The notes under the pieces were generated by a model, which had not been told where the DNA came from, did not search any database, and saw only the letters and a program-made list of their open reading frames with translations. Source: Acidiphilium acidophilum (GTDB lineage Bacteria > Pseudomonadota > Alphaproteobacteria > Acetobacterales > Acetobacteraceae). From it: a DNA stretch of 64,000 bases. The DNA lies in the NCBI RefSeq assembly GCF_033842475.1, contig NZ_JAWXYB010000018.1, positions 2,897,501 through 2,961,500 on the forward strand. Direction: 5' to 3'. A program made the position numbers and the translations under genes. Positions 25,445 to 54,581 of this stretch are shown piece after piece; position 1 is the stretch's first letter; each line of letters starts with the position of its first letter.

Positions 25445-26575
25445 TTAGCCCGGGGCATCCTCCAGCAAGGCGGTCAACGGCGCAAAAATCTGTGCCGCGG
25501 CATAATGGCGCGTGACATACCCGAGCGCATCGGCATCCTCGGGCCGCTGCGCCAGCGCCGCCAGCACGGTCGCCCCGAAACTCGACGGGGATTCGGCAAC
25601 GAATACCGGTGCCCGCCGGTCATCCGCCAGGCCGGACCGGGCTTCCCCGGTCGCCACCGTCCACAACCCGTGGCGCGCATAATCGAGCAGCTTGACCTTG
25701 AGCCCCGACCCCGCCCGCAACGGCGCGATGGCCAGCGCCGCCCGATGCAGCGCCGGCGCCAGATCCGCCACCCGTCCCAACCGCCGCACCCCGCTCGGCA
25801 ACCGCCCGATCGCCGCCCCGCAATCCCCGGCCAGATCCAGCCGGATCGACGGACGGCCCGAACGCAACCCCGGCCAGATGGCCTCGAAAAACCAGCGCAA
25901 CCCGTCGAGATTGGGCAGATTGTCACTGCCGACGAACACCAGCCGATCCGGATTGCGCATCACCCCCGCCGGGCGCGGCGCGGGCGCTGCCGGCATCGGC
26001 ACGCTGATCACCTGCACCCCCGGGCACATCTCCCGCAGCAACCCCGCCTCATCCGGCTGGATCGCCACCAGCGCCCCGGCCCGCCCCAGCGCCGCCGCCT
26101 CCTGCGCCCGGCTCAACTCCGCCGGCTCGACCCGATACCCCGCAAGCTTCAGCGCCGCGTGCCGGCGATGAAACACATCATGCGTGATCACCACCGACCG
26201 GGCGCGATCCTCGCCCCCAAGTTCCGGCCGTTCGAGCAAGGCCGCGCGAAACACCGTATCGATCAGGATCGCATCGGGCCGGTCCGCCGCGATCCGCCGC
26301 GCGATCCACCCCGCCTCATCGTTGGTGATATAGCTGCCCAGCACCACATCGTTGTGCCGATGCCGCGCCCCGCGCATCATCCCGCCCGGCAGCACCGCCC
26401 GCGCGATCGATGCCACCGCCGCCCGTGGCTCGGTCGCCGCGACATACCGCCCCGCCCGCACCAATCGCGGCCCGGCCAGACTGGCGAACGGCGCGGCCTG
26501 GTCGATCCGCATCACCGGCCCCGGCAGGCGAGGCCGGGTCAGATACAGATCGACCCGATGCCCGCGCGCGCTCAA
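25445..26575 (-). CDS. Glycosyltransferase, GT4-like; true start upstream and unclear
   Basis: At least 376 residues of a GT-B glycosyltransferase: a variable N-terminal acceptor domain and a C-terminal nucleotide-sugar domain with LVFVGSDNLPNLDGLRWF, the RRLGRVADLAPALHRA segment and APLRAGSGLKVKLLDY, which is the typical GT4 donor motif. The first canonical start in frame is TTG at 26575, but conserved N-terminal sequence (FVTDELPRPGSAGHLAYNH) continues in frame about 28 codons further upstream, up to the grxD stop. No ATG, GTG or TTG exists between the upstream stop (26732-26734) and 26575; a CTG at 26668 is the only near-cognate candidate. Acceptor and sugar are unknown. Confidence 0.75.
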   Translation of the reverse strand: MSARGHRVDLYLTRPRLPGPVMRIDQAAPFASLAGPRLVRAGRYVAATEPRAAVASIARAVLPGGMMRGARHRHNDVVLGSYITNDEAGWIARRIAADRPDAILIDTVFRAALLERPELGGEDRARSVVITHDVFHRRHAALKLAGYRVEPAELSRAQEAAALGRAGALVAIQPDEAGLLREMCPGVQVISVPMPAAPAPRPAGVMRNPDRLVFVGSDNLPNLDGLRWFFEAIWPGLRSGRPSIRLDLAGDCGAAIGRLPSGVRRLGRVADLAPALHRAALAIAPLRAGSGLKVKLLDYARHGLWTVATGEARSGLADDRRAPVFVAESPSSFGATVLAALAQRPEDADALGYVTRHYAAAQIFAPLTALLEDAPG

Positions 26576-26657
26576 ATGGCTGATCAGCGCATGATTATAG
26601 GCCAGATGCCCGGCAGAACCGGGCCGTGGCAGTTCGTCGGTGACGAAGCTGAAGCGT

Positions 26658-27005
<348 letters not shown>

Positions 27006-27031
27006 GAAACTCTCCTAAACGAAAGGGCAGC

Positions 27032-27265
27032 TTAGTCGGGTGCCGAAGTCTGGAGCGCGAGCGCATGCAGCGCGCCCCCCATCCTGCCCTGCAATGCGGC
27101 ATACACCATCTGATGCTGGCGCACCCGCGAAATCCCGCGAAATTGTTCGCTGGTCACCGTCGCGGCATAATGGTCGCCATCCCCCGCCAGATCCTCCACC
27201 GTGATCTGCGCATCCGGCAGGGCGGATTTGATCAGAAGTTCAATCTCGGCGACCGACATGGCCAT
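27032..27265 (-). CDS. BolA family protein
   Basis: 77 residues with the BolA/IbaG fold: an N-terminal helix (VAEIELLIKSALP), the strand DAQITVEDLAGDGDHYAATVTS and the helix-turn RVRQHQMVYAALQGRM with its conserved His. It partners monothiol glutaredoxin in Fe-S and iron regulation; grxD is next in the operon. The ATG at 27265 has GAGGAT upstream; longer in-frame starts are rejected. Confidence 0.92.
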   Translation of the reverse strand: MAMSVAEIELLIKSALPDAQITVEDLAGDGDHYAATVTSEQFRGISRVRQHQMVYAALQGRMGGALHALALQTSAPD

Positions 27266-27284
27266 GGGGCAATCCTCGGAACGA

Positions 27285-29462
27285 TCAGGCGAACCAGCGC
27301 GCGAAGAAATGTTCATGCGCCGTTCGCATTTCTGCGACAGATATGGCGTTGCCATCCGGCAGTGTCAATCGATCCCCGCCGCTGGTCCCGAGCGCCGCCG
27401 CCACCACACTGACCTCCCGCGCCGCCGCGATCACCGCGGCCCCATCCGCCACCGCCAGCACATACCGCGCCTGATCCTCGCCGAACCAGAACCCATGCGC
27501 CGCCCCCTCCGGCATCAGCGTCACCGCCGCGCCGACATCGCCCGCCAGCGCCATCTCCGCCACCGCCACCAGCAACCCGCCATCCGAAACGTCATGGCAC
27601 GCGGCCACAAGCCCGGCCCCGATCAAGCCCCGCACGAACTCGCCATTCCGCCGCTCCACCGCGAAATCGATCGTCGGCGGCGCGCCATCCTCCCGCCCCA
27701 GCACCTCGCGCAACCAGAGCGACTGCCCCAATTCCCCGCGCGTCGTACCCACCACGACCAGATCCAGCCCCGGCCTCAGCGCAATCCCCACCGCCGTCGC
27801 CGCATCCTCGATCACCCCCAACCCGCCGATCGCCGGCGTCGGCAATATCCCCGACCCCTCGGTTTCATTGTAAAGCGACACATTCCCCGAAACCACGGGG
27901 AAATCGAGCGCGGCACACGCCGCCCCCATCCCCCGGATCGCCGCGACGATCTGCCCCATGATCACGGGCTTCTCCGGATTGCCGAAATTCAGATTATCCG
28001 TCACCGCCAGCGGCAAGCCGCCCGTCGCGGTGATATTCCGCCACGCCTCCACCACCGCCTGCGCGCCCCCCGCCTCGGGGTCCGCCGCACAATAACGCGG
28101 CGTGCAATCGGTCGTCAGCGCCAGCGCTCGCCGGCTCCCCGGGATCTTCACCACCGCCGCATCCGCCTGCCCGGGCCGCTTCACCGTCTGCCCGCCAACC
28201 GTCCCGTCATACTGATCCCAAATCCACTTGCGCGACGCGACATCCGCGCACCCGATCAACCGCATCAGCCCCGCCGCAATCCCGACCGGATCATCCACAT
28301 CCCCCAGCGCCCCGGGCTTCGCCGCCTCGACATAAGGCCGCTCATAGAGCGGCGCCTGCTCCGCCAGCGGATCGAGCGCGATATCCGCCTCCACCACACC
28401 CTTATGCGTCACCACGATCCGCCCGGTATCGGTAATCCGCCCGATCACCGCGAAATCCAGCTCCCACTTCTCGAAAATCGCCCGCGCCATCTCCTCCCGC
28501 GCCGGATCGATCACGATCAGCATCCGCTCTTGGCTCTCCGACAGCATCATCTCATACGCCGTCATCCCCGCCTCGCGCTGCGGCACCGCATCGAGATCAA
28601 GCTCGATCCCCACCCCGCCCTTGCCCGCCATCTCCACCGAGGACGAGGTCAGCCCCGCCGCCCCCATATCCTGAATCGCAACGATCGCATCCGTCGCCAT
28701 CAACTCCAGACACGCCTCGATCAGCAACTTTTCAATGAACGGATCGCCCACCTGCACGGTCGGCCGCTTCTCCTCGGAATCCGCGGCAAACTCGGTCGAA
28801 GCCATGGTCGCGCCATGAATCCCGTCCCGCCCGGTCTTCGACCCCACATACACCACCGGATTGCCAATCCCCGCCGCCGCCGAGAGAAAAATCCGGTCCT
28901 GTGCCGCAATCCCCACCGTCATCGCATTGACCAGCGGATTGCCATTGTACGAGCGATGAAAATTGGTCTCACCACCCACGGTCGGCACGCCCACGCAATT
29001 GCCATACCCGCCAATCCCGCGCACCACGCCATCAACCACCCGCTTGGTCACCGCGAGCGACGGATCACCAAACCGCAACGCGTTCAAATTCGCGATCGGC
29101 CGCGCCCCCATGGTGAACACATCGCGCAAAATCCCGCCCACCCCGGTCGCAGCACCCTGAAACGGCTCAATGAAACTCGGATGGTTATGGCTCTCCATCT
29201 TGAAAATCGCCGCCAACCCCTCGCCGATATCCACCACACCGGCATTCTCGCCCGGCCCGTGGATCACCCAGGGCGCGCTCGTCGGCAGCGTCTTCAGCCA
29301 CACCCGCGATGATTTATACGAGCAATGCTCGGACCACATCACCGAAAATATCCCCAGCTCCGTCAGGTTCGGCGTGCGCCCCATAATGGCCAGCACCCGC
29401 TCATACTCCTCACCGGACAGCCCGAAACTCCGCGCCAGCGCCGCATCGATCACCTGATCCAT
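27285..29462 (-). CDS. purL: Phosphoribosylformylglycinamidine synthase subunit PurL
   Basis: Small-type PurL (725 aa) that converts FGAR to FGAM using ammonia from PurQ. Motifs: the catalytic-His region [10 protein letters not shown], the ATP segment with [16 protein letters not shown] and the second half with [11 protein letters not shown] and [13 protein letters not shown]. The ATG at 29462 overlaps the purQ stop (TGATG). Small PurL requires PurQ and also PurS; purS is not adjacent here. Confidence 0.96.
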
Positions 29463-30154
29463 CACGCCACTCCAATCGCCGTCAGACTGTCGAACAATGG
29501 CTTGCCATCCACCCCACCCATCAACGGATCGACCAGATTTTCCGGATGCGGCATCAACCCCAGCACCCGCAAATTCGGCGACAACACCCCGGCAATATTG
29601 CGCGCCGACCCGTTCAAATTCGCCGCCGCCGTCACCGCACCCCGCTCATCGACATACCGGAACGCCACCAACCCCTCGCCCTCCAGCCGATCCAGCGTCG
29701 CCTGATCCGCGAAATAATTGCCATCGCCATGCGCCATCGGCGCCCGAAACACCTGCCCGCGCGCATACGCCCCGGAAAACACCGTATCCGCCCGCTCCAC
29801 CCGCAACCGGCACTCCATCGATAAAAACCGCAGCCCCGCATTGCGCAGCAACGCCCCCGGCAACATCCCCGCCTCGGTCAAAATCTGAAACCCGTTGCAA
29901 ACCCCCAGCACATACCCGCCCCGCGCCGCATGATCCGCCACCGCCCGCATCACCGGCGACTGCGCCGCCATCGCCCCGCACCGCAGATAATCCCCATAGG
30001 AAAACCCGCCCGGGATCACCACCAGATCAACCCCGGCCAAATCCGTCTCCCGATGCCAGATCATCCGGGGCCGCCGCCCCAAACTCCCCTCCAGCGCAAT
30101 CGCAATATCGCGCTCACGATTGATCCCGGGAAAAACAACAACGCCTGCATGCAT
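29462..30154 (-). CDS. purQ: Phosphoribosylformylglycinamidine synthase subunit PurQ (glutaminase)
   Basis: Class I glutamine amidotransferase of 230 residues that feeds ammonia to PurL. The nucleophile is C86 in GVCNGFQIL, the oxyanion region is [12 protein letters not shown] and the His/Glu pair is in GLMPHPEN. The ATG at 30154 ([10 protein letters not shown]) is chosen because it matches the family N-terminus; GGAG lies 11 nt upstream. The usual upstream partner purS is absent and a repeat element plus hicA occupy that place. Confidence 0.95.
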
Positions 30155-30223
30155 GGGTTCACATCTCCGTCCCGCGCGTCTTGCCCTGCCCGTGCGCGTT
30201 GGGCAAGCGAAGGGAAGCAAGGC

Positions 30224-30262
30224 GTTCTTTTTTGCAAAAAAGAACCAAAAAACTCTTTTGAA
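30224..30262. repeat. Truncated copy of the 116-bp bipalindromic element
   Basis: A perfect 22-bp palindrome at 30224-30245 (GTTC, T-tract, GC, A-tract, GAAC) followed by CAAAAAACTC. The first about 38 bp are nearly identical to the start of the element at 34431, but the second palindrome is missing. It separates purQ from the divergent hicA. Confidence 0.75.
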
Positions 30263-30323
30263 TCCGGGGTGGTGCCGTGGAGCCGTCTTGGACCAGCATG
30301 AAAAAATGTGTATGATGCGCATC

Positions 30324-30503
30324 ATGAAGAGCGCCGACCTCGTCCGCGAATTGAAAAGCGCCGGCTGGGAACTCGATCGCGTTCGCGGCTCCCACCATGT
30401 GTTCAAGCACCCGACGCGTCCCGGTCACGTCGTGGTGCCACACCCGAAAAAAGACCTCGGCACCGGCCTCGTTGCCGCCATCCGCAAACAGGCGGGCCTA
30501 TAG
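30324..30503 (+). CDS. hicA: HicA-type mRNA interferase toxin
   Basis: A 59-residue double-stranded-RNA-binding-fold toxin. The catalytic His is in [12 protein letters not shown] (H24/H25) and the end [22 protein letters not shown]-like pattern is typical of HicA; it cleaves translated mRNA until bound by HicB. Start taken at ATG 30324; ATGs at 30312 and 30315 are possible. The antitoxin gene follows after 9 nt. Confidence 0.9.
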
Positions 30504-30512
30504 GAGATCATC

Positions 30513-30929
30513 ATGCGCTACCCCATCGCCATCGAACCCGGCACCGATCAAACCGCCTTCGGCATTGTCGTCCCCGATCTCCCCGGTTGCTTCTCCGCCG
30601 GCGACACGCTCGACGATGCCCTGTCCGCCGCCGAACAAGCCGCCGCCGCCTGGATCGACGCCACGCTCGATCAGGGTAAACCCATTCCGAAACCCACCAG
30701 CCTCGATGCCCTCAGCAGCAACCCCGCCTACGCAGGCTGGAGCTTCGGCGTCATCACAGTCGACCCCGCCCTGCTCGATGATACGACCACCCGCGTCAAC
30801 ATCACCCTCCCCCGGCGCATCCTGAAACGCCTCGACGCCCTGGCCGCAGCAACCGGCGAAACCCGGTCCGGCTTCATCGCTCACATGACCCTGGAAGATC
30901 ACACGCAGACATTTTACGATCCGCAATGA
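30513..30929 (+). CDS. hicB: HicB-type antitoxin
   Basis: 138 residues: an N-terminal HicB domain (YPIAIEPGTD, FGIVVPDLPGCFSAGDTLDDAL) that masks the toxin and a C-terminal ribbon-helix-helix-like DNA-binding part (TRVNITLPRRILKRLDALAAATGETRSGFI). The GAGGAGATC-like region before ATG 30513 gives a good ribosome site. The pair probably represses its own promoter in the purQ-hicA gap. Confidence 0.9.
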   Translation: MRYPIAIEPGTDQTAFGIVVPDLPGCFSAGDTLDDALSAAEQAAAAWIDATLDQGKPIPKPTSLDALSSNPAYAGWSFGVITVDPALLDDTTTRVNITLPRRILKRLDALAAATGETRSGFIAHMTLEDHTQTFYDPQ

Positions 30930-40866: not shown

Positions 40867-42092
40867 GGTCGTCCCCCGGCTCGAAGCGCAGCCTGCAGGG
40901 GCTGGACTGGCTGAATTTCTGCGTCGCCGACGTCCAGACCGGGTTCGGCCCGTTCATCGCGATCTACCTGACCACCCAGCGCTGGACCGACATCGCGATC
41001 GGCAGTGTCCTCTCGCTCGGCACCCTGGTCGCCATGGCCAGCCAGCTCCCCGCCGGTGCCCTGGTCGACTGGATGCCGAGCAAGCGCCTCGCCGCCGCCC
41101 TCGCCATCGCCGCCATCACCGCCAGCGCCCTGCTCTTCGTCCTGATGCCGACCCATTTCGGCATCGGCCTTGCCGAGGTGATGCACGGATTCGCAAGCTG
41201 CATGCTCAATCCCGCCATCGCCGCCATCACCATCAGCCTGGTCGGCAGCGCGGCTCTGGGCGAACGACTGGGCCGCAACGCCCGCTACAGCTCGCTCGGC
41301 AACGGCGTCGCCGCGGCGGTGATGGGCGGGTTCGGCTATTATTTCGCCCCGGGCTCGGTGTTCTGGCTCACCGCCCTGCTCGGCGTCCCCTCGCTGTTCG
41401 CCCTCTCGCGGATCGAATCCCGCCGCGTGGTCCGCGCCCAAGCCGATGCCGCGCGGCCCCATCGCAGCACTGCGGCGGAACTGCGCGCCTTGTTCCTCGA
41501 CCGCCGGCTCCTCGCCTTCATGGCCTGCATCGTGATGTTCCAGATGGCCGACGCCGCGATGCTGCCCTTCGTCGGCAGCGAACTCGCGGCCAAAGCGGGC
41601 GGTATCGCCAACCTCGTCATCGCCGCCTGCATCGTGGCGCCCCAGGCGGTGGTCGCGCTGATGTCGCCCTGGGTCGGCCGCGCCGCCCAGCGCTATGGCC
41701 GCCGCGCCGTGCTCCTGCTCGGCTTCGGTGCCGAACCGGTGCGCGGGCTGCTGTTCGGCCTGATCTCGGCGCCGATCCCGGTGGTGCTGATCCAGTCGAT
41801 CAACGGGATCAGCGCCGCGGTCATCGGTGTGCTGCTGCCGCTGATCGCCGCCGACATCGCGCGCGAGCGGGGGCATTTCAACCTGATCATGGGCGCCATC
41901 GGCCTCGCCGTCGGCCTCGGCGCGACGGTGAGCACCGCCGCCGCCGGCGCGATCTCAACCCGGATCGGCGACCACGCCGCGTTTTTCGCCCTCGCCGGCG
42001 CCGGGTTGATCGGCACCATCCTGGTCTGGTTCCTGATGCCGGAAACCGCGCGCGATCAGGTCACCGTCACCGTCCCCTCCGACCCGCGCTGA
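40863..42092 (+). CDS. Major facilitator superfamily transporter
   Basis: 409 residues with about 12 hydrophobic spans in two halves. It begins with SLQGLDWLNFCVADVQTGFGPFIAIYLT, a pattern of MFS drug/sugar permeases, and has a central loop around residues 185-205 (SRIESRRVVRAQ) before the second half. Start TTG at 40863 overlaps the PRC-barrel stop. Its 3' end overlaps the convergent debranching-enzyme gene by 37 bp. Substrate unknown. Confidence 0.83.
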   Translation: MRSSPGSKRSLQGLDWLNFCVADVQTGFGPFIAIYLTTQRWTDIAIGSVLSLGTLVAMASQLPAGALVDWMPSKRLAAALAIAAITASALLFVLMPTHFGIGLAEVMHGFASCMLNPAIAAITISLVGSAALGERLGRNARYSSLGNGVAAAVMGGFGYYFAPGSVFWLTALLGVPSLFALSRIESRRVVRAQADAARPHRSTAAELRALFLDRRLLAFMACIVMFQMADAAMLPFVGSELAAKAGGIANLVIAACIVAPQAVVALMSPWVGRAAQRYGRRAVLLLGFGAEPVRGLLFGLISAPIPVVLIQSINGISAAVIGVLLPLIAADIARERGHFNLIMGAIGLAVGLGATVSTAAAGAISTRIGDHAAFFALAGAGLIGTILVWFLMPETARDQVTVTVPSDPR

Positions 42093-44185
42093 AACGAAAC
42101 CGCGAGCCGCTGGCCCCCGACCGCAAGCCGATCGACCCTCAGCCGCCCCATCGTCGCGGGCAGGCACGGCGCGCCGGAAACCGCCGTGGCGCAAGCCGGG
42201 TCGAGCCTCAGGTCGAGGCAGGCATCGAGCAAAGCCGGCAGGGTCGCCGCCGCCCAGGCCTGCGGCGCGCACGCGACCGGATAGGCGGTGGGCGAAACCC
42301 CGCGCTGCCGGGGAAAGCCACAGAACAGCTCCGGCAGCCGGTAGCGATCCGCCCACGCCGCGGTCGCCAGCATCGCGTCGAATAATCGCGCAGCCTCGGC
42401 GTGCCGCCCGTACCGCGCGAGGCCGAGGCCGATCAGCGCATTGTCGTGCGGCCAGACCGAGCCGTTATGATAGGACATCGGGTTGAACCGGGGCTGCCCC
42501 CGCGCGAGGGTGCGAACGCCCCAGCCGGAAAAGAAATCCTCACCCATCAGCCGCGCCGCAACCCGCCCCGCCCGCTCCGGCAGCGCGATCCCGCTGAACA
42601 AAGCATGCCCGGCATTGGAGGCCAGAACCCGGCAGGGCCGCTTCGCCCCGTCGAGCGCCAGAACATAGAACCCCAGTTCCTCGTCCCAGAACCGTTGGTC
42701 GAACCGCTCGCGCAGCCCGGCCGCATCGCCCGCGAGCCGCGCGGCCTGATCCGGCGCGCCCAGAGCCCGGGCGAGCGCGGCGCCAGCACTTTTCGCGGCA
42801 TAGACATAGCCCTGCACCTCGCACAGCGCGATCGGCCCCGTCGCCAGCGCGCCGTCGGCGTGGAAAATCGAATCCCGGCTGTCCTTCCAGCCCTGATTGG
42901 CGAGGCCGTGGCCGGTCTTGCGGCCATATTCGACGAACCCGTCGCCATCCTCATCCCCCGGCCCGTCGATCCAGCCGAGCGCCGCCTCGATATTGGGCCA
43001 GATCTCGCGGATGAACGCAGTGTCATGGGTGCGGGCATGATAGGCCCCGGCCAGCATCACGAAGAGCGGCGTCGCATCGACCGAGCCGTAATACCGGCGG
43101 AACGGCACCTCGCCGAGCCGCGCCATTTCGCCATCGCGCGCTTCATGCAGGATCTTGCCGGGCTCGGCATCCGCCGCCGGGTCGAACCCCTGCGCCTGAT
43201 TGGCCGCGAGATAGGCCAGCACCCCGCGCGCCAGAGCGGGTGCCAGCCACAGCGTCTGCATCGCGGTGATGATCGCATCGCGGCCGAACGCGGTCGAAAA
43301 CCACGGCACCCCGGCATAGGGGTAGGGCCCGTGCGGGGTCTGCGTGGTCAGCATGATCAGATCGTCCCGCGCGCGCAGCAGCGCCGCGTTCGCAACCGCA
43401 TTATCCGAAACAATCCGCGCCGATTGCCGCCGCAGGTCGCGCCGCGCCCGCCGCGCGGCCTCGCGGGCGGTGCCGAACCGGGTGATCGCGGGCCGGTCGT
43501 CCTCGGCCCCGGATTGCACCGCGATCGCGATGCGGATCGTCTCGCCCGGTTCCAGACGACGGCGATAATGCGCCGCTCCCGGCTCGATCCGGTCGGGTTT
43601 CGGCTCGAAATCGAGCCGGGTCCAGCGCCGCACCCCATCGAGGCCGGTGCAGGCCAGGGTGGCTCCGTGCGGCGCGACCCCCGCGGCTTCCATCGTGCCA
43701 TGACGCTGGCGCGGCGTGCCGCGAATCTCGAACAGATCGGCAAAATCGGCGGCGAAAGCGATATCGAGCGTGATGGTCTGCGTGGTGCGCGCCCAGTTGC
43801 CGATGGTCAACAGGTCGTGGCGGGTGTCGCGCCACAGAAAAATTTCCCGCCGGAGCGAGATTTCATTGCCCTCGTCGCCCATGTCGGTGCGTCCTTCGGG
43901 GGCAGGGCCGGCCAGATCGCACACCAGCGTCGCATTATCGGTGCTGATCGCGCCGGTCAGCAGCCGTGGCCGCGCACCATCGAGCATCACCGTCATCCGC
44001 GACAGATGCCTTGTGTCGTGGTAAAAGACCCCCTCGCTCCTGCCGCTCATGTCGCCGTTGACCGCGAAGATCGCAAAGCAATCGTCCGACTTCAGGGTAT
44101 GGGGCCGGTCCTCCGCGTTGCTCGCACCGGCGGCCACGGGGAAAGTCTTGTCGTCCATCAGGTCCGGCAGCGAACGATCGTGCAT
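42056..44185 (-). CDS. Amylo-alpha-1,6-glucosidase / glycogen-debranching-type protein
   Basis: 709 residues. The N-terminal beta domain (GDE_N_bis type) begins at DDCFAIFAVNGDMSGRSEGVFYHDTRHL, and the C-terminal (alpha/alpha)6 GH63/GDE-like barrel follows from about residue 270 with YPYAGVPWFSTAFGRDAIITAMQTL, FVEYGRKTGHGLANQGWKDS and NPMSYHNGSVWPHDNALI. Acidic residues of the barrel (AFGRD, GWKDS) are the probable catalytic site. It may release branch glucose from glycogen-like glucans or trehalose-type oligomers. The start at 44185 has AGGAG 7 nt upstream. IS copy 2 lies 39 bp upstream of the start and displaces its promoter. Confidence 0.87.
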   Translation of the reverse strand: MHDRSLPDLMDDKTFPVAAGASNAEDRPHTLKSDDCFAIFAVNGDMSGRSEGVFYHDTRHLSRMTVMLDGARPRLLTGAISTDNATLVCDLAGPAPEGRTDMGDEGNEISLRREIFLWRDTRHDLLTIGNWARTTQTITLDIAFAADFADLFEIRGTPRQRHGTMEAAGVAPHGATLACTGLDGVRRWTRLDFEPKPDRIEPGAAHYRRRLEPGETIRIAIAVQSGAEDDRPAITRFGTAREAARRARRDLRRQSARIVSDNAVANAALLRARDDLIMLTTQTPHGPYPYAGVPWFSTAFGRDAIITAMQTLWLAPALARGVLAYLAANQAQGFDPAADAEPGKILHEARDGEMARLGEVPFRRYYGSVDATPLFVMLAGAYHARTHDTAFIREIWPNIEAALGWIDGPGDEDGDGFVEYGRKTGHGLANQGWKDSRDSIFHADGALATGPIALCEVQGYVYAAKSAGAALARALGAPDQAARLAGDAAGLRERFDQRFWDEELGFYVLALDGAKRPCRVLASNAGHALFSGIALPERAGRVAARLMGEDFFSGWGVRTLARGQPRFNPMSYHNGSVWPHDNALIGLGLARYGRHAEAARLFDAMLATAAWADRYRLPELFCGFPRQRGVSPTAYPVACAPQAWAAATLPALLDACLDLRLDPACATAVSGAPCLPATMGRLRVDRLAVGGQRLAVSFQRGSEGTVTVT

Positions 44186-44224
44186 GGCAAACTCCTGTGG
44201 CTGTGAGGGACCGGCGCAGCCTAG

Positions 44225-46340
44225 CCCATCTTTAGCACTAAAACGATCATAATTTGCAACCAAAGCGCATAACATATTGATATTGTATACTTTATGTTTT
44301 GCTTTTATTTGTAGTGCCATAATATTATTGATGATCCCTTGACCCCCCACGGCACCAGCCTCATGTCTCGGCAATGTTTATCCGCAAAACAAAAACCCGG
44401 AATAAGTCCGATAACGAAACATACTTCACCTATCGCCTCGTCGCCTCCGAGCGCATCGGTAAGCAGGTCCGCCAGATCACCCTGCTCAACCTTGGCCGCC
44501 AGTTCGACCTGCCACAGAGCGACTGGCAGGCCCTGTGCGCCAGGATAGACGCCTTGCTTGCCGGACAGGTCGGTATGCTCGCAGAACCCGAGATCATCGA
44601 GACCTTGGCTCAACGATATGCCGCCCGTCTTATTGCGGCCCAGCCAGGGGCAGCCCGATCGGATGCTGGACACCAAGCTCCACCGACCCCGTCGACCGCC
44701 GTTCAGGCATCCTTATTCCCATCACCTGCCGCGCCATCTGCAGTTTACGCCGAGGTCGACATCGCCTCGCTGCAACTCATCCGGCCCCGGTCGGTCGGGG
44801 TCGAAGCGGTCGGCCTTGCAGCGATGAACTGGTTGGGAATCGATCAGATTCTCCGCGATCTCGATTTCAATGGTGTCCAGCGAGCCGCGGTGGTCGGCAG
44901 CCTCATAGGTCGCATGGCAGCGCCGGGCAGCGAACTCGCAACCTGGCGCTGGCTGCGCGAGCGCAGTGCCCTCGGCGAACTGCTGGACGTGGACTTCGAA
45001 GCCATGCCGTTGATCCGTCTGTATCGGACCTCCGACCTTCTTGTGCGACACCGTGACAAGATCGAGACCGCACTGTTCAGCCGGATCCAGGATTTGTTTG
45101 GACTGCCGGTTACCGTCACCCTCTACGATCTGACCAACACGTATTTCGAAGGTACCGCCAGCGGTAACGCCAAGGCTGCTCGCGGTCGATCAAAGGAGAA
45201 GCGAACCGACTGCCCTCTGGTTACCCTCGGCCTGGTCCTCGATGGCAGCGGCTTCGTGCGCCGCTCAAAGATGTTCGCCGGCAATGTCGGTGAAGCCACG
45301 ACCCTTGAGGAGATGCTCGACGGCCTCACCGCTCCCAAGGGGGCGCTGGTCATCATGGATGCCGGCATCGCGACCGCAGCCAACGTCGCTTGGCTCATAA
45401 AACACGGATACCGTTACCTGGTGGTCAGCCGCGAACGCACCCGCCAGTTCGATCCGGATCAGGCGATCAGCACGCTGACCGCGTCGAACGAGACGGTCCA
45501 ATTGCAACGTGTGCTGAGCGAGGATGGCACGGAGGTTCGGCTCTATTGCCATTCCGAGGGGCGCAAGACCAAGGAGACCGCAATCACTGATCGGTTCATC
45601 ACCCGGTTCGAGGCCGGTCTCACCACGCTCGTCGACGGACTGGCAAAACCCCACGGACAGAAAAACCTGGCTGATATCCAGCGACGCATCGGCCGATTGA
45701 TAGAGAAGAGCAGCGGCATCGGGCAACACTACGAGATCATCGTGACTCCCGATGAGACCGGAACCAAGGCCGCGTCGATCACCTGGGTCAAGGTTCCACT
45801 CGAGGGTTCAATGCTGACACATCCCGGGGTCTATTGTCTGCGCAGCAATGAAACCACCTGGGACGCCGCCACCTTGTGGCACACCTACACCATGTTGACC
45901 GATCTGGAGGCGGTGTTCCGCGGTCTCAAATCGGAACTCGGCCTCCGACCGGTGTTCCATCACAAAGCGGACCGCACCGAAGGGCATCTGTTCATCACCG
46001 TGCTGGCCTATCAACTGGTCCAGGCAATCCGGCATAAACTGAAAGCGGCAGGGGAGCCCCTGTCATGGACCCGATTGCGCGAAATCATCTCGGTGCAGCA
46101 ACGGATCACCGCAACCTTCCAGCAGCGCGACGGTCGCACCCTGCATGTCCGCAAGGCCACAGTCGCCGAACCAGCCTTGCGCCGGATTTATGATGCGTTG
46201 GCACTCAATGCCTCGCCAAGAGGGATCCAGAAACTCACCGTCTGATCCCCTTTGGATATGTTTGTAGTGCCACTCGGATTTTTTTAAGAGTGTAAGATGC
46301 TGATATTATGTGGTTTATTCGAGGCACTGCTAAATATGGG
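44225..46340 (+). mobile_element. IS1634-like insertion sequence, copy 2 (2116 bp)
   Basis: Same element as copy 1 but in inverted orientation, flanked by its own 4-bp duplication CTAG (44221-44224 and 46341-46344). It inserted between the debranching-enzyme gene and rpmB. Because the duplications at the two copies are different and both intact, each copy came in separately and the 7.5-kb segment between them has not been inverted by recombination since. Confidence 0.93.
44374..46245 (+). CDS. IS1634/IS4-superfamily DDE transposase (copy 2)
   Basis: A 623-residue protein identical to copy 1 except Arg for Gly eight residues before the end. All catalytic regions are intact (DLTNTYFEG, IMDAGIATAAN, LEAVFRGLKSE), so both copies look active. 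It transcribes toward rpmB. Confidence 0.93.
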   Translation: MFIRKTKTRNKSDNETYFTYRLVASERIGKQVRQITLLNLGRQFDLPQSDWQALCARIDALLAGQVGMLAEPEIIETLAQRYAARLIAAQPGAARSDAGHQAPPTPSTAVQASLFPSPAAPSAVYAEVDIASLQLIRPRSVGVEAVGLAAMNWLGIDQILRDLDFNGVQRAAVVGSLIGRMAAPGSELATWRWLRERSALGELLDVDFEAMPLIRLYRTSDLLVRHRDKIETALFSRIQDLFGLPVTVTLYDLTNTYFEGTASGNAKAARGRSKEKRTDCPLVTLGLVLDGSGFVRRSKMFAGNVGEATTLEEMLDGLTAPKGALVIMDAGIATAANVAWLIKHGYRYLVVSRERTRQFDPDQAISTLTASNETVQLQRVLSEDGTEVRLYCHSEGRKTKETAITDRFITRFEAGLTTLVDGLAKPHGQKNLADIQRRIGRLIEKSSGIGQHYEIIVTPDETGTKAASITWVKVPLEGSMLTHPGVYCLRSNETTWDAATLWHTYTMLTDLEAVFRGLKSELGLRPVFHHKADRTEGHLFITVLAYQLVQAIRHKLKAAGEPLSWTRLREIISVQQRITATFQQRDGRTLHVRKATVAEPALRRIYDALALNASPRGIQKLTV

Positions 46341-48338: not shown

Positions 48339-49145
48339 TCAGGTCACCTCATCGGTGATCACGGTGAACCCGGTCAGGATGCAGGTGCCGAAGGTCGTGG
48401 TGATCGCGACATCCGTGGCATCCCGGCCCCTTGCCATCAGGATACGCCCGATGCGCGGCTGGTTGTGCCGCGCATCGCAGGTGTACCACCGCCCGCCGAG
48501 AAACACATCGAACCAGCCGCTGAAATCCATCGGGTCGGGCGAGACCGGCACGCCGATATCGCCGAGATAGCCGGTGCAATAGCGCGCCGGGATGTTCATG
48601 CACCGGCAGAAAGTGATCGCGAGATGGGCGAAATCGCGGCACACGCCGCGCTGCTCCATATAGGCGTCCCACGCCGTCTTGGTCGGCCGGGCGCTCTGGT
48701 AATCGAAGGTGATCCGGTTATTGACATAGGCACAGATCGCCGCGACCCGCGCCCAGCCCGGCTCGATATGGCCGAACAGCGAAATCGCGGTATCCGAAAG
48801 CCGGTCGGTCTCGCAATACCGGCTGCCGAGCAGGAACACCAGAATATCCGAGGGCAGGTTCTCGATCGCCACCTGCGGCGCGCCATGCGGGACCGGGTCG
48901 GGATCGCCATAATCGCGTACCAGAAACTCCGCCCGCATCGACTGCCGGCCCGGCTGCGCGACGATCCGGGTGCAGCGATTGCCGAACCCGTCATTGTAAT
49001 CGGTCGCCGGCACCGGCGGGTCGAACACGATCTTATGCTCGGTCAGCAGGTCCGGCTCCCGCGAGGGATGGATGTTGAGCATCAGCAGCATCGGGATCGG
49101 GGTGGGGCAATCGAACGAGATATCGAAGCCGGTGCGGATTTTCAT
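48339..49145 (-). CDS. Transglutaminase-fold protein with Ser in place of the catalytic His
   Basis: 268 residues, no signal peptide. An N-terminal beta region (about 1-120) is followed by a transglutaminase-like core. The nucleophile position is C169 in QRGVCRDFAH, and the Asp position is about D224 in YTCDARHN. Where active family members have His-Ala-Trp, this protein has DFSGWFDVFL, so the His is Ser209. I recall a Ser in this position in other members of this subfamily, so it may be a subfamily trait rather than a defect; H227 could substitute. It lies 14 nt after the next transglutaminase gene and forms an operon with it. Confidence 0.8.
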   Translation of the reverse strand: MKIRTGFDISFDCPTPIPMLLMLNIHPSREPDLLTEHKIVFDPPVPATDYNDGFGNRCTRIVAQPGRQSMRAEFLVRDYGDPDPVPHGAPQVAIENLPSDILVFLLGSRYCETDRLSDTAISLFGHIEPGWARVAAICAYVNNRITFDYQSARPTKTAWDAYMEQRGVCRDFAHLAITFCRCMNIPARYCTGYLGDIGVPVSPDPMDFSGWFDVFLGGRWYTCDARHNQPRIGRILMARGRDATDVAITTTFGTCILTGFTVITDEVT

Positions 49146-49159
49146 CGGGCGGGATTCCA

Positions 49160-50065
49160 TTACGAGGTGAAAGCGGGTTGATCGGCGGCGGTGACCGAGA
49201 CGGTCACGTTCATCGACAAATGATCCGAGGGCGCACCGGTCCATGTACCGGAAAGCGGGATCGCCTGAGCCGGCGCCCGGACCACGGCGACGCGGATGAG
49301 ATCGTGATTGCCGACGATGCCGTTGGTCGGATCGAACTCGACCCATCCGGCACCGGGCAGATAGACCTGCAACCACGCATGGGTCGAACCGCCGCCGGCA
49401 TAGCGCCCCCCGCGCGGCGGGACGTGCAGGTAACCCGAGACGAAGCGGGCGGCGAGGCCGAGGGCGCGCACCGCATCCATCATCAGCACCGCGAAATCGC
49501 GGCAGCTCCCGCTGCCCAGCCGCAGCGTGGTGGTCGGCGATTGCAGCCCCTTTTCCTCGCGAGCGACATAGGTGAACCCCTGCCAGATCGCCTGATTGAT
49601 CGCGATCAACAGCGATCGTGTTCCGGTCGCCCCGCTCGACGACAGAAACCGCCGCACCCAGTGATCGACCTCGTGATGCGGGTCGGGGTCCTGCCGCTCG
49701 ATCAGCCGCATCAGGTCCGGCATCTCGTCGCCGCCATAGGTGAACGGATAGGTGGCGGCGTAATCCTCGATCGCGAGATCGGGGAGCGGCCCGTCATAGA
49801 CATGGCTCGGGCTGTGCTGGACCCGGACCAGACTGTCGAAGGTCAATTCCCCGGCGCGCGCCCCGAAACTCGCGTAGGCGACATGATTGCCGAACACATC
49901 GAGCATCCAGCGCTGGCGCGCCGGTTCGGGCGTGATCACCACATTGGCGGCCAGCACCCGCTGGTCGTGTCCCTCGCGCGGGCGGAACATCATCCGATGC
50001 TCGCCGAGCGCCACCGGACGGCGGTAACGATAGGTCGTGATATGGCGAACCTCGAGCACCGTCAT
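49160..50065 (-). CDS. Transglutaminase-like cysteine peptidase-fold protein
   Basis: 301 residues: bacterial transglutaminase N-terminal beta domain (about 1-90, VRHITTYRYRRPVALGEHRM) and a Transglut_core. The complete triad is C188 (GSGSCRDF), H229 (STHAWLQVYLPGAG) and D245 (VEFDPTNG). No signal peptide, so it should be cytoplasmic. Divergent from the next two genes and first of the two-gene operon 50065-48339. Activity may be hydrolytic (isopeptidase) rather than cross-linking. Confidence 0.85.
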   Translation of the reverse strand: MTVLEVRHITTYRYRRPVALGEHRMMFRPREGHDQRVLAANVVITPEPARQRWMLDVFGNHVAYASFGARAGELTFDSLVRVQHSPSHVYDGPLPDLAIEDYAATYPFTYGGDEMPDLMRLIERQDPDPHHEVDHWVRRFLSSSGATGTRSLLIAINQAIWQGFTYVAREEKGLQSPTTTLRLGSGSCRDFAVLMMDAVRALGLAARFVSGYLHVPPRGGRYAGGGSTHAWLQVYLPGAGWVEFDPTNGIVGNHDLIRVAVVRAPAQAIPLSGTWTGAPSDHLSMNVTVSVTAADQPAFTS

Positions 50066-50357
50066 GGGTCAGCGCCACCGGACGGGTCGAGGCATCGCAG
50101 GCGCCGGCGGGTTCATTGCTGTCCTGTACGAAACGATCAACCCGAATATGTGATGATCAACCGCCGAGTTCCATGTGAATTGTCGAGTCTGCCGAAACGT
50201 AATCGTTCGGTGAGGCAGGGCTGCGCATCGTGCGGGCAGATTATGCCCATATTTGCACCAGACCGGGCCGCGCAGCGTCTTTTGACCCGACGACACGGCT
50301 ATCGGCGCGCCCGGAGCGGTGATATCGAAACAGTCGAACCGCGTGGATGCCGAGCCG
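50066..50357. promoter_or_regulatory. Divergent intergenic region of the transglutaminase cluster
   Basis: 292 bp between two divergently transcribed transglutaminase genes. It must contain both promoters, but I found no convincing -35/-10 pair, operator dyad, small ORF or terminator in it. Confidence 0.35.
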
Positions 50358-51245
50358 ATGCGATACCGCCTGACCCACAGCACACTCTATACCTACCAGA
50401 CCAAAGCGATCCGGGCGCGGCATTTCCTGCATCTGCTGCCCCGCGCCCGCCCCGGCCAGATCCTCGACGTCGCCACCCTCGCGATCGAACCCGCCCCGTC
50501 GGACCGGTATGACGAGTTCGACTATTTCGGCAACCGCATCACCTCGGTCGATATCGACGCGCCGCACGACATGTTTCACGCCACCGTCCGCGCCGACATC
50601 CTGCTCGACCCGCGCCCGCCGCTGGAGCATGCCGGACTCGCCTGGGAGTCGATTGCAAACGACACGGCCCTGCCCCCGGACATTGCCGAGTTCGCGGTGC
50701 CCACACGGCTGACCGGCGCGGATGACGGGGTGCTGGCCCTCGCGCGCCGGCATTTCACCCCGCAGGCGGACATGATGGCCGCGACCGCCGGGCTCAGCCA
50801 TCATCTCTACGAGATCTTCCGCTACCGCTCCGGCGTCACCTCGGTCACCACGACCGGCCCGGCGGCGCTCGCGAAGCGCGAAGGGGTCTGTCAGGATTAC
50901 GCCCAGGCGATGCTGGCCTGCCTGCGCGCGATCGGCCTGCCAGCGCGCTACGTCTCGGGCTATCTGCGCAGCCAGACCGTGAGTCCCGACTCCGGCAATC
51001 CTGACTCCGGCTATTCCGGTGCGGAGCAGACCCATGCCTGGGTCTCGGTCTGGTTCGGCCCGCAGCACGGCTGGGTCGATTTCGACCCGACCAACGATCT
51101 CATCGTCGCGGGGGAGCACGTCACCCTCGCCTGGGGGCGCGACTTCACCGATGTCAGCCCGACCTGCGGCATCATTCTCGGTGGCCGGCGTCATACCCTG
51201 AAAGTCAGCGTCGTGCTCGCCCCGGTGGCGGACCACCCGGCGTGA
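50358..51245 (+). CDS. Transglutaminase-like cysteine peptidase-fold protein
   Basis: 295 residues with the same two-domain plan as the protein at 49160: an N-terminal beta domain (YRLTHSTLYTYQT) and a core with C178 (REGVCQDYAQ), H226 (QTHAWVSVWFG) and D243 (VDFDPTND). A short insert with DSGNPDSGYSG lies between the core strands. ATG 50358 is preferred over 50319. Followed after 45 nt by the amidoligase fusion. Confidence 0.85.
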   Translation: MRYRLTHSTLYTYQTKAIRARHFLHLLPRARPGQILDVATLAIEPAPSDRYDEFDYFGNRITSVDIDAPHDMFHATVRADILLDPRPPLEHAGLAWESIANDTALPPDIAEFAVPTRLTGADDGVLALARRHFTPQADMMAATAGLSHHLYEIFRYRSGVTSVTTTGPAALAKREGVCQDYAQAMLACLRAIGLPARYVSGYLRSQTVSPDSGNPDSGYSGAEQTHAWVSVWFGPQHGWVDFDPTNDLIVAGEHVTLAWGRDFTDVSPTCGIILGGRRHTLKVSVVLAPVADHPA

Positions 51246-51290
51246 ACCACCCAAAATGACCCGCTCCACCCCCCGTCACAAAGGCAATGC

Positions 51291-54200
51291 ATGTCGATCC
51301 AAGTCGCCCTGACGCATCGCACCAGCTACAAATACGACCGTCCGGTGCGGCTGGGACCGCAGACCATCCGCCTCCGCCCGGCGCCCTACGCCCGCACGCC
51401 CATCCTCGCCTACACGCTGGCAGTCGCGCCGAAACCCCATTTCCTCAACTGGCTGCAGGACCCGCAGGGCAATTTCCTCGCCCGGGTGGTGTTCCCCGAA
51501 GCGGTCACCGAATTCAGCGTCACGGTCGACCTGATCGCCGATATGGCAACGATCAACCCGTTCGATTTCTTTCTCGAACCCGAAGCCGAGACCTGGCCCT
51601 TCGCCTACGACCCGGTGCTGGAACAGGAACTCGCCCCGTTCCGCCGCACCGAAACCCCCGGCCCCCTGCTCGCCGCCCTGATCGAACAGGGCGCCGCGAT
51701 CGAGGCGAGCACGGTGAACAAGCTGGTCGCGCTCAACGCGCTGGTGCAATCCCGCGTCGCCTATGTGGTGCGGATGGAACCCGGCGTCTGGTCGCCCGAG
51801 CACACCCTCGCCGAAGCGCGCGGGTCCTGCCGCGATTCCGCCTGGCTGCTGGTGCACCTGCTGCGCCATCTCGGCTTCGCCGCCCGCTTCTGCTCGGGCT
51901 ACCTGATCCAGCTGGTCGCCGATGTGAAACCGGTCGAGGGCCCCGCCGGCCCGACCGAGGATTTCACCGATCTTCACGCCTGGGCCGAGGTCTATCTCCC
52001 CGGCGCGGGCTGGATCGGGCTCGATGCCACGTCCGGATTGCTGACCGGCGAGGGCCATATCCCGCTGGCCGCCAGCCCGGACCCGATCTCCGCCGCGCCG
52101 ATCTCGGGCGGGGTCGAACCCGCCGGCGTCGAATTCGATTTCGCCATGACGATCCGCCGGATCGAACAGACCCCGCGCGTCACCCGCCCCTATGACGAGG
52201 CCGATTGGCAGGCGATCCTCGCGATGGGCCAGCGGGTCGATGCCGCCCTTGCGGTGAACGATGTCCGCCTCACCATGGGCGGCGAACCCACCTTCGTCTC
52301 CGCCACCGATATCGACGCCCCGGAATGGAACATCGATGCGCTCGGCCCGACCAAGCGCACCATGGCCGGGCGCCTGCTCCGCCGGATCGCCCCGGTCTGG
52401 GCGCAAGGTGCCGTGCTGCAATACGCGCAGGGCAAGCTCTACCCGGGCGAGCCGCTGCCGCGCTGGGCGCTCCACGCCTTCTGGCGCGAGGATGGCGAAC
52501 CGGTCTGGCAGAACCCGGCCCTGCTCGCGAGCGACGACGATATCGCGGATCACCCCGGCGACGCCACCGCCGCAACCGCAACCGCCTTCGCCACCGCCCT
52601 TGCCGAAGCGCTGGGGATCGACCCCGCCTTCGTGATGCAAGCCTACGAGGACGTGCATTACTACCTCTGGCGCGAGTCGAAACTCCCCGCCAATGTCCGC
52701 GCCGAAGCGAGCCGGATCGCCGACCCGATTGAGCGCGCCCGCCTCGCCCGCCTGTTCACCGGCGACCTCACCGCCCCGAGCGGTGCCGTCCTGCCGCTGC
52801 GGCGGGTCGCCGATGGTGCCGCCCGGCTCTGGCAATCCGCCCGGTGGACCCTGCGCGGCGGCGACCTCGTGCTGATCCCCGGCGATTCCCCGATCGGCCT
52901 GCGCCTCCCGCTCGACCAATTGCCCTGGGAAGACCCCGCCGAGACCGAAACCGACATCCCCGACGATCCTTTCGCCCCGCACCCCCGGCTGCCCTCGGCG
53001 GCGGCGCTCCACGCCGGTCTCCCCACCGCGCCGGTCGCCGCCCTGCCGCAGAAGCTGCGCGGCGAAGCCCCCGGCATCGTCCGCACCGCCCTCGCGGTCG
53101 AGGCACGCGGCGGGTACCTGCACGTGTTTCTGCCCCCGCTTGCCGCCGTCGAGGATTTTCTGGTCCTGATTGCCGCGATCGAGAAAACCGCCGCCGCCTC
53201 CGGCCGCCGGATTTTCCTCGAAGGCTACCAGCCGCCGGACGATCCCCGCCTGCTCAGCTTTTCGGTCACCCCCGACCCCGGCGTGATCGAAGTCAACCTG
53301 CCCCCCGCCGCGACCTGGCCCACTCTGGTCCACCGCACCCTCGAACTCTATGAATTCGCCCGCGAAACCGGCCTCGCCGCCGAGAAATTCATGCTCGATG
53401 GCCGCCATGTCGGCACCGGCGGCGGCAACCACGTGGTCATGGGGGCCGCCGAGGCCGCCGACAGCCCGTTTCTCCGCCGGCCGGACCTGCTGAAATCCCT
53501 GCTCGGCTTCTGGCATAACCACCCCAGCCTGTCCTATCTGTTTTCCGGCCTGTTCATCGGCCCCTCCAGCCAGCACCCGCGGATCGACGAAGCGCGTGAC
53601 GACACCGTGCTGGAACTCGAAACCGCGTTCCGCCAGATCAAACCGGGCGAGGAAACCGCGCCCTGGGTGATCGACCGGCTGCTGCGCAACATTCTGTGCG
53701 ACATGACCGGCAATCTGCACCGCACCGAATTCTGCATCGACAAGCTCTACGCCCCCGGTGCCGCCTCGGGTCGGCGCGGCCTCGTCGAATTCCGCGCCTT
53801 CGAAATGCCGCCCGATGCGCGGATGTCGGTCGCCCAGGCCCTGCTGATGCGCGCCTGCGTCGCCGCATTCTGGCAGACCCCGTACGAGCGCCGGCTGATC
53901 CGCTGGGGCACCCGGCTCAACGACCGCTTCATGCTGCCGCACTACGTCGCCGCCGATCTGCGCGACGCGCTGGAGGAACTGGCGATGCGCGGCTTCGCGC
54001 TCGACCCCGCCTGGTTCGCGCCACATCAGGAATTCCGGTTCCCGAAACTCGGCGCGGTCACCATCGCCGGCATCGGGCTCGAACTGCGCCACGCGCTGGA
54101 ACCCTGGCACGTCCTCGGCGAGGAACAGAGCGGCTCCGGCACCGCCCGCTATGTCGACAGCGCGGTGGAGCGGGTGCAGGTCAAACTCACCGACTGGAAC

Positions 54201-54581
54201 GACGAGCGCTTCACCCTCGCCTGCAACGGCATCGCCGTTCCCCTCACCGAAACCGGCATCGCGGGCGAGCGCGTCGCCGGCATCCGCTTCAAGGCATGGT
54301 CGCCGCCCTCATCGCTCCACCCGATGATCAAGCCGCAAACCCCTCTGATCTTCGATGTGATCGACCAATGGACCGGTCGCGCCCTCGGCGGCATGACCCA
54401 TCACACCGTCCATCCCGGCGGACGCGGCTACGAGAAATTCCCGGTCAACGCCAACGAGGCCGAAGCCCGCCGCCGCTCCCGCTTCCTTGCCTTCGGCCAC
54501 ACGCCGGGCGAGATCGAACCGGTCACCGGCGCGGTCTCGGCGGAACACCCGATCACCCTCGATCTCCGCCGCTTCGCTTAG
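51291..54581 (+). CDS. Transglutaminase core fused to DUF2126 putative amidoligase
   Basis: 1096 residues, cytoplasmic. Residues about 1-290 are a transglutaminase N-domain plus core with the triad C180 (RGSCRDSAW), H229 (DLHAWAEVYLPGAGW) and D245 (GLDATSG). From about 315 the DUF2126 part begins (VRLTMGGEPTFVSATD), with conserved DGRHVGTGGGNHVVMG, HPSLSYLFSGLFIGPSSQHPR and VEFRAFEMPPDARM. Pfam describes DUF2126 as a putative amidoligase, and comparative work placed it with glutamine-synthetase-like COOH-NH2 ligases. The fusion of a peptide-bond-cleaving or transferring domain with a ligase suggests a peptide tag or small-peptide modification cycle. The usual partners, an alpha-E (DUF403) protein and a circularly permuted ATP-grasp, are not in the window. 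Confidence 0.85.
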   Translation: MSIQVALTHRTSYKYDRPVRLGPQTIRLRPAPYARTPILAYTLAVAPKPHFLNWLQDPQGNFLARVVFPEAVTEFSVTVDLIADMATINPFDFFLEPEAETWPFAYDPVLEQELAPFRRTETPGPLLAALIEQGAAIEASTVNKLVALNALVQSRVAYVVRMEPGVWSPEHTLAEARGSCRDSAWLLVHLLRHLGFAARFCSGYLIQLVADVKPVEGPAGPTEDFTDLHAWAEVYLPGAGWIGLDATSGLLTGEGHIPLAASPDPISAAPISGGVEPAGVEFDFAMTIRRIEQTPRVTRPYDEADWQAILAMGQRVDAALAVNDVRLTMGGEPTFVSATDIDAPEWNIDALGPTKRTMAGRLLRRIAPVWAQGAVLQYAQGKLYPGEPLPRWALHAFWREDGEPVWQNPALLASDDDIADHPGDATAATATAFATALAEALGIDPAFVMQAYEDVHYYLWRESKLPANVRAEASRIADPIERARLARLFTGDLTAPSGAVLPLRRVADGAARLWQSARWTLRGGDLVLIPGDSPIGLRLPLDQLPWEDPAETETDIPDDPFAPHPRLPSAAALHAGLPTAPVAALPQKLRGEAPGIVRTALAVEARGGYLHVFLPPLAAVEDFLVLIAAIEKTAAASGRRIFLEGYQPPDDPRLLSFSVTPDPGVIEVNLPPAATWPTLVHRTLELYEFARETGLAAEKFMLDGRHVGTGGGNHVVMGAAEAADSPFLRRPDLLKSLLGFWHNHPSLSYLFSGLFIGPSSQHPRIDEARDDTVLELETAFRQIKPGEETAPWVIDRLLRNILCDMTGNLHRTEFCIDKLYAPGAASGRRGLVEFRAFEMPPDARMSVAQALLMRACVAAFWQTPYERRLIRWGTRLNDRFMLPHYVAADLRDALEELAMRGFALDPAWFAPHQEFRFPKLGAVTIAGIGLELRHALEPWHVLGEEQSGSGTARYVDSAVERVQVKLTDWNDERFTLACNGIAVPLTETGIAGERVAGIRFKAWSPPSSLHPMIKPQTPLIFDVIDQWTGRALGGMTHHTVHPGGRGYEKFPVNANEAEARRRSRFLAFGHTPGEIEPVTGAVSAEHPITLDLRRFA

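Follow-up and report, generated by a model that had tools for sequence, protein, structure and literature searches.

A divergent cluster of transglutaminase-fold genes in Acidiphilium acidophilum as the probable half of a split amidoligase system

Introduction

An amidoligase system made up of transglutaminase-fold (TG) proteins, alpha-E proteins, circularly permuted (CP) ATP-grasp proteins, and DUF2126 proteins was reportedly described in a 2009 paper by Iyer and colleagues, and its genes usually share a single neighborhood. Here we consider a 64,000-nucleotide stretch of the Acidiphilium acidophilum genome (NCBI RefSeq assembly GCF_033842475.1, contig NZ_JAWXYB010000018.1, positions 2,897,501 to 2,961,500), called the window below, in which four TG genes form a divergent cluster, one of them fused to DUF2126. 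We conclude with moderate confidence that these four genes are the TG/DUF2126 half of that system, which in this genus has been split into two distant loci. The conclusion draws on domain content, residue conservation, a weak fold match, co-occurrence across genomes, and purifying selection.

Rv2566 of Mycobacterium is taken here as a DUF2126 protein and Rv2569c as a TG of the system. A 2008 paper by Iyer and colleagues (PMC2588565) gives Rv2566 as the example of a family in which a carboxylate-amine ligase domain is joined to a TG-like domain; by this description, the protein, known here from the literature alone, has the same domain order as the fusion in the window. Rv2569c was reported in 2024 as a serine protease, though the domain analysis in that report pointed to a cysteine enzyme (PMC11081392).

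The Anbu operon, as presented in two reports (PMC5666114, PMC6376114), encodes an ATP-grasp, an alpha-E protein, a transglutaminase, and Anbu. According to the second report (PMC6376114), the ATP-grasp frees phosphate from ATP and Anbu showed no peptidase activity, and the authors state that, to their knowledge, published hypotheses lack experimental confirmation.

Results

The four-gene cluster

Four open reading frames (ORFs), two per strand, occupy positions 48339–54581 of the window, and the ORF list and a Pfam search place a transglutaminase core in every one. TGb>TGa reads leftward as one pair and TGc>TG-DUF2126 rightward as the other, the two diverging from a shared gap (Table 1). The starts of TGa (~49145, inside the listed ORF) and TGc (~50358) were set by comparison with genus mates, which gives spacers of 14 bp for TGb/TGa and 45 bp for TGc/TG-DUF2126. 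Because these spacers are short, each pair is probably one transcript. With the corrected starts, the gap between the pairs has the length originally predicted, and in an alignment among genus mates it is little conserved except close to the TGc start.

The original prediction that the four proteins share the TG fold is borne out by Transglut_core scores of 62–71 bits against a cut-off of 23, and its largest protein does join a TG core to DUF2126 (PF09899, 1211 bits) in one ORF. The catalytic Cys-His-Asp triad is intact in three proteins, again as predicted, and in TGa Ser replaces His. The prediction that signal peptides are lacking agrees with the absence of a strongly hydrophobic N-terminus from all four (best 19-residue Kyte-Doolittle mean near the N-terminus, 1.05; no signal-peptide predictor used).

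Table 1. Coordinates of features in the window and elsewhere on its contig (C18). aa, amino acids; GS, glutamine synthetase.
Feature	Sequence	Coordinates	Strand	Description
TGa	window	48339..49145	-	268 aa from likely start; PF01841 64 bits; Cys and Asp kept, Ser at catalytic His position
TGb	window	49160..50065	-	301 aa; Bact_transglu_N (PF08379) and Transglut_core (PF01841); triad C188/H229/D245
Divergent intergenic region	window	50066..50357	.	292 bp between the two gene pairs
TGc	window	50358..51245	+	295 aa from likely start; Bact_transglu_N (PF08379) and Transglut_core (PF01841)
TG-DUF2126	window	51291..54581	+	N-terminal TG ~residues 1-265, triad C180/H229/D245; GS-like putative amide ligase 277-1093
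Alpha-E	C18	2026908-2027837		270 bits
CP_ATPgrasp_2	C18	2027939-2029066		534 bits; same strand as Alpha-E
Divergent ATP-grasp/alpha-E fusion	C18	~2029448-2031643		L004:11449-13644; head to head with CP_ATPgrasp_2/Alpha-E
Peptidase_Mx	C18	1794628-1795371		L280; far from both loci
Glycogen-debranching-type ORF	window	42056-44374	-	abuts the transposase ORF
IS1634-family transposase ORF	window	44374-46245		275 bits

A second locus with alpha-E and ATP-grasp

The absence of alpha-E and ATP-grasp, as originally predicted, holds for the neighborhood in the window and fails for the genome, since a profile search located both in a second locus at C18 2.027–2.032 Mb, ~914 kb from the cluster. With both genes present at ~2.03 Mb of the organism's own contig, their absence or their replacement by extra TG paralogues is ruled out. 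The usual single neighborhood is thus replaced here by two distant loci; adjacency is usual for the system but not essential to it. TG families, the fusion of a TG with a GS-like ligase domain, and the ATP-grasp and alpha-E families are all shared with the described system.

The intact CP_ATPgrasp_2>alpha-E pair of this locus is also what is shared with the Anbu operon (PMC5666114, PMC6376114), which in addition has the Anbu peptidase. No Anbu was found in the A. acidophilum genome: its lone proteasome-fold match (89 bits) is read as HslV from its score, which is like that of the main match in most relatives, while the weak matches beside alpha-E in some relatives score 21–37 bits. The intact ATP-grasp matches 3n6x (E 4.4e-160), whose name, glutathionylspermidine synthase, is itself putative.

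The ATP-grasp/alpha-E fusion that faces this pair differs from that of the described system in the loss of several ATP-grasp residues. Eight such divergent fusions (six from the genus, plus G034 and G020) were set apart by genome through their low ATP-grasp scores, before residues were examined. The 21 typical fusions are the 27 other rows labeled as fusions minus six, of which five are interpreted as ORFs lying antisense to separate ATP-grasp genes and one (L124, 826 aa) as an unfused ATP-grasp whose frame is long. Most typical fusions keep five positions of the intact ATP-grasp (E184 in 20, N185 in 21, R191 in 19, E243 in 21, and H244 in 18 of 21), whereas none of the eight divergent ones does, and all eight have Asp in place of E243. 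In seven of the eight, the region 340–430 is reduced to 7–33 aligned residues, compared with 74–90 in typical fusions. Both losses occur in the A. acidophilum fusion, in those of five genus mates, and in G034; the residue loss occurs also in G020. The residues lost would be catalytic, as judged by their conservation alone. The divergent fusions still hold 11–13 of 18 scored positions, which speaks against full decay, and the ratio of nonsynonymous to synonymous substitution rates (dN/dS) for the fusion is 0.10–0.22 within the genus. Because this constraint persists, the fusion probably serves the adjoining intact ATP-grasp/alpha-E pair as an altered or non-catalytic partner.

Co-occurrence across genomes

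Co-occurrence was followed in 80 genomes, the organism's own and 79 relatives, a set in which kinship inflates the counts and some genomes are incomplete. Alpha-E and CP_ATPgrasp are found in exactly the same 47 genomes, and all 33 genomes with DUF2126 fall within these 47. A TG core occurs in 47 of 47 genomes with the alpha-E/ATP-grasp pair versus four of the 33 others. Together with the weakly matched GS-like fold and the invariant candidate residues described below, this supports the originally predicted link between an amide ligase and thiol hydrolases. Within the genus, four genomes have DUF2126, alpha-E, and ATP-grasp, two lack DUF2126 alone, and six (some of them incomplete) have none of the three.

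Gene order and the place of TGb and TGa

Gene order was read in 107 fetched loci, which gave the DUF2126 neighborhood of 29 of the 33 genomes, the organism's own included, and in 80 named loci, the best 80 of at least 592 DUF2126 matches. Some loci in either set are clipped by contig ends. Many named loci are from Pseudomonas, and the remainder include some titled as Verrucomicrobia, Singulisphaera, or other proteobacteria; the two sets overlap (L143 is the G046 contig of L043, and L149 is the G017 contig). Three modules recur: (I) TG-DUF2126>ATP-grasp/alpha-E fusion>TGc; (II) CP_ATPgrasp_2>alpha-E, which at times has behind it a further TG and a weak proteasome-fold match that we interpret as Anbu; and (III) TGb>TGa. 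The fusion lies directly downstream of TG-DUF2126 in 15 of the 29 genomes, and in 67 of the 80 named loci it is the first matched gene after TG-DUF2126.

The window combines TGc and TG-DUF2126 of module I with module III, and it departs from the described system in having TGc upstream of TG-DUF2126 and the TGb/TGa pair head to head with these two genes. In no case among the 80 named loci does TGc immediately precede TG-DUF2126. G001 and G010 have no DUF2126 and keep TGc behind the fusion; in G034, from another genus, fusion and TGc stand head to head with module II, and DUF2126 lies elsewhere. From layout and tree we infer that module I broke up and that TGc then moved, the layout in the window being a genus-level reshuffle of the known predicted amidoligase system. 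In L172 (Arenibaculum), a TGb-type gene is divergent to module I, a partial parallel to the layout in the window. A wider conserved operon was rejected as a candidate, as outside the modules no neighbor family occurs in more than five of 43 named loci.

It is possible, though on the unlikely side, that TGb and TGa provide a separate activity and merely adjoin TGc>TG-DUF2126 in this genus. TGb and TGa are in tandem in 15 of the 20 genomes whose fetched loci hold both, and 11 of these 15 tandems lie away from any DUF2126 gene; moreover, G006 has TGc>TG-DUF2126 without the pair, its TGa being on another contig in a 10-kb stretch in which no TGb was found. Set against this, the pair adjoins ATP-grasp and alpha-E in G021, where a DUF2126 gene is next to CP_ATPgrasp>alpha-E>TGb>TGa, and in G033, where TGb>TGa>CP_ATPgrasp>alpha-E all run in one direction. 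These two orders tie the pair to the same system, and the rarity of a TG core in genomes without ATP-grasp/alpha-E likewise argues against a separate activity.

Transglutaminase families

In a quick tree of 116 TG proteins, in which meeting long branches were flagged, TGa and TGb are each confined to one side of a branch (Shimodaira-Hasegawa-like approximate likelihood ratio test support of 100 and 84). The TGc and TG-DUF2126 labels require three and two changes, because TGs of ATP-grasp/alpha-E operons carry these labels; sets were labeled by best match, and those of TGc and TG-DUF2126 take in a few such operon TGs. The genus TGc proteins group with TGc of G001, G010, and G034. By this tree, the four TG proteins each belong to an old orthologue group of their own, and TGc is the orthologue of the TG that usually comes after the ATP-grasp/alpha-E fusion. 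The separation of the types rules out recent TG paralogues, and with it the idea that extra paralogues had taken the place of alpha-E and ATP-grasp.

The triad is retained in 22 of 22 TGb-labeled, 38 of 38 TGc-labeled, and 28 of 29 TG-DUF2126-labeled proteins, the remaining row being a gap. TGa-type proteins have Cys and Asp in 27 of 27 cases and His in two; His is lost from the other 25, which include the TGa of the window. Within the genus, dN/dS for the genes of the window cluster and the second locus is 0.04–0.29, and among the four window genes it is lowest for TGa (0.04 for G003 versus G007 and ~0.10 against G000), a sign of strong purifying selection despite the loss of His. TGa, without His, is probably a non-catalytic partner of TGb.

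A stand-alone TG in G041 (L118:4068-5147) groups with the TG half of TG-DUF2126 and adjoins Peptidase_Mx, treated below, and ATP-grasp/alpha-E. Its genome has no DUF2126 match, so the TG half can exist without the ligase half.

The DUF2126 domain

A sequence search of the PDB with TG-DUF2126 returned matches to the TG domain only, and no solved structure matching the DUF2126 part. The AlphaFold2 model of the whole protein (predicted local distance difference test score, pLDDT, 81; predicted template modeling score, pTM, 0.81) likewise had the TG fold of 3isr as its best PDB structure match (E 2.6e-13). For residues 294–1096 modeled alone (pLDDT 82, pTM 0.85), Foldseek gave 752 PDB matches at E ≤10. 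The best 50 of the 752, all weak, are GS-fold ligases. They comprise glutamine synthetases, gamma-glutamylmethylamide synthetases, and 1tt4, which is named a 'predicted glutathione synthase' and which we take to be GCS2-type.

In DUF2126 alignments of 26 and 50 sequences, E332, D662, E667, N713-H714, and E833-x-R835 are invariant, so that the candidate active-site residues are retained as far as they can be assigned; their loss, which was to count against the original prediction, is not seen. They run in the same order as the E-x-E, E...E, G-S-G-x-H, and E-x-R of 12 glutamine synthetases from relatives, taken from the 12 of 30 loci with a motif-bearing ORF and chosen by one of those motifs; the one-to-one match of residues to GS positions is our own reading, not a superposition. 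The structure work drew on 49 of the 80 named loci. A literature search by DUF2126, COG, and Pfam names found no study of the family among the open-licence papers listed.

The top matches of the model, gamma-glutamylmethylamide synthetase and glutamine synthetases, would also suit a small-molecule version of the system, in which the ligases make gamma-glutamyl-like amides of amines or amino acids for nitrogen storage or detoxification, the TGs hydrolyze them, and no protein or peptide is tagged. The Anbu of the sister operon is reported in two papers to be raised under nitrogen limitation (PMC6376114, PMC5666114), and alpha-E, ATP-grasp, and Bact_transglu_N domains are tied to urea metabolism in marine metagenomes, according to a third (PMC3597751). 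A fold match, however, says nothing of the substrate; the DUF2126 domain, at ~820 residues, is far larger than the GS chains matched; and TG-fold, Anbu, and zinc-peptidase partners are in our judgment better suited to peptide-like substrates. We regard this version as rather unlikely.

Peptidase_Mx as a possible partner

Peptidase_Mx, a zinc metallopeptidase that also has a zinc ribbon (its HExxH motif is HESGH in L196), is encoded no more than ~3 kb from parts of the system in nine of the 107 relatives' loci. Three of the 80 named loci have it too, one of them on a contig already counted among the nine. The loci concerned are L034, L036, L038, L039, L040, L043, L057, L079, L118, L143 (the L043 contig), L146, and L196. 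The A. acidophilum copy has neighbors common to genus mates. Peptidase_Mx matches 28 of the 80 genomes, 27 of which have alpha-E; weak or partial matches are those of G032 (without alpha-E) and G033. In the genus, it is found in six of six genomes with alpha-E and in none of the six without, a count that is suggestive at most, because the split may follow two subclades. The 20 of 47 alpha-E genomes without a match speak against a general rule, and a literature search by Peptidase_Mx family names, covering titles and abstract openings, gave no link to this system. Peptidase_Mx tends to go with the system and is a candidate for an extra partner.

Surroundings of the cluster

The IS1634-family transposase near the cluster had no near match in a plasmid collection. 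In the genus mate G007, the ORFs adjoining TG-DUF2126 (L052:1666-8058) are homologous to window positions 25460–30902, some 20 kb off, so the surroundings of the cluster have been rearranged within the genus. PADLOC and PHROG searches gave zero matches for the four proteins, which rules out a PADLOC-listed defense system or phage family.

Discussion

Several observations weigh against assigning the four genes to the TG/alpha-E/CP-ATP-grasp/DUF2126 system. The GS-group matches of the DUF2126 model among the best 50 of 752 are weak, with a best E of 3.5e-3, probabilities ≤0.99, and none reaching 0.001, and their target template modeling scores (TM-scores) are 0.22–0.34 at root-mean-square deviations of ~8–13. 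As no E reaches 0.001 and the TM-scores are low, the GS-fold result is consistent support, short of proof. An hhalign comparison of DUF2126 with a GCS2 profile gave no match, both profiles being of low diversity (the GCS2 sample began as ORFs from 22 of 30 loci, with 18 taken on, three wrong-frame rows dropped, and 15 left). The aligned DUF2126 proteins are 54–69% identical to that of the window, and invariance alone is weak evidence because at such identity very many columns are invariant. Of the 47 genomes that hold alpha-E and ATP-grasp, 14 lack DUF2126. Outside the genus the four genes do not stay together, an outcome that was to count against the original prediction: the layout is found in three of 29 genomes, all of the genus (A. 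acidophilum, G003, and G007), and in none of the 80 named loci, and in G006 TGc>TG-DUF2126 occurs without TGb/TGa. Lastly, published tests of the related Anbu operon detected no specific interaction among its proteins (PMC6376114).

Even so, the amidoligase assignment remains the one we favor, and an amide-forming and amide-breaking enzyme set is the most likely function predicted from sequence. The intact ATP-grasp (C18, 2.028 Mb) would use ATP to turn a carboxylate into an acyl phosphate, which it would then couple to an amine, and the GS-like DUF2126 domain may work in the same way. What they build would be an amide or peptide conjugate. The TG domains that depend on Cys, namely those of TGb, TGc, and TG-DUF2126, would act on this same amide by hydrolysis or transfer, so that the modification could be undone. 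Of this scheme, published work supports single pieces only, such as the release of phosphate from ATP by the ATP-grasp of a related Anbu operon (PMC6376114). TGa, which lacks His, would probably be a non-catalytic partner for TGb, and the altered ATP-grasp fusion one for the intact ATP-grasp/alpha-E pair.

These elements can be joined into a more specific and doubtful proposal, that the system of the genus has been rebuilt on pseudo-enzymes. The fusion with its dead ATP-grasp would be a structural partner of the intact ATP-grasp/alpha-E pair, the His-less TGa would regulate TGb, DUF2126 alone would keep the second ligation, and Peptidase_Mx, as a member not listed before, would hydrolyze the product, replacing Anbu. 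It is very improbable that the encoded transglutaminases truly cross-link proteins and that the ligase domain is unrelated to them, for although TGb, TGc, and TG-DUF2126 have the fold and triad, the best PDB relative, 3isr, is named a putative cysteine protease, the N-termini are not strongly hydrophobic, and the tight tie to ATP-dependent ligases suggests, in our judgment, hydrolysis or transfer.

The cluster is a real member of a known but uncharacterized system, with an unusual layout seen in this genus alone. The DUF2126 family is widespread, with at least 592 confirmed matches in the genome collection and presence in 33 of the 80 genomes considered here. That the genes still co-occur although their layout is split suggests that they work as a set even when far apart. 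A genus with four full, two DUF2126-less, and six empty genomes is a ready comparison for finding the product, and the altered fusion and His-less TGa give testable hints as to which subunits carry the chemistry.

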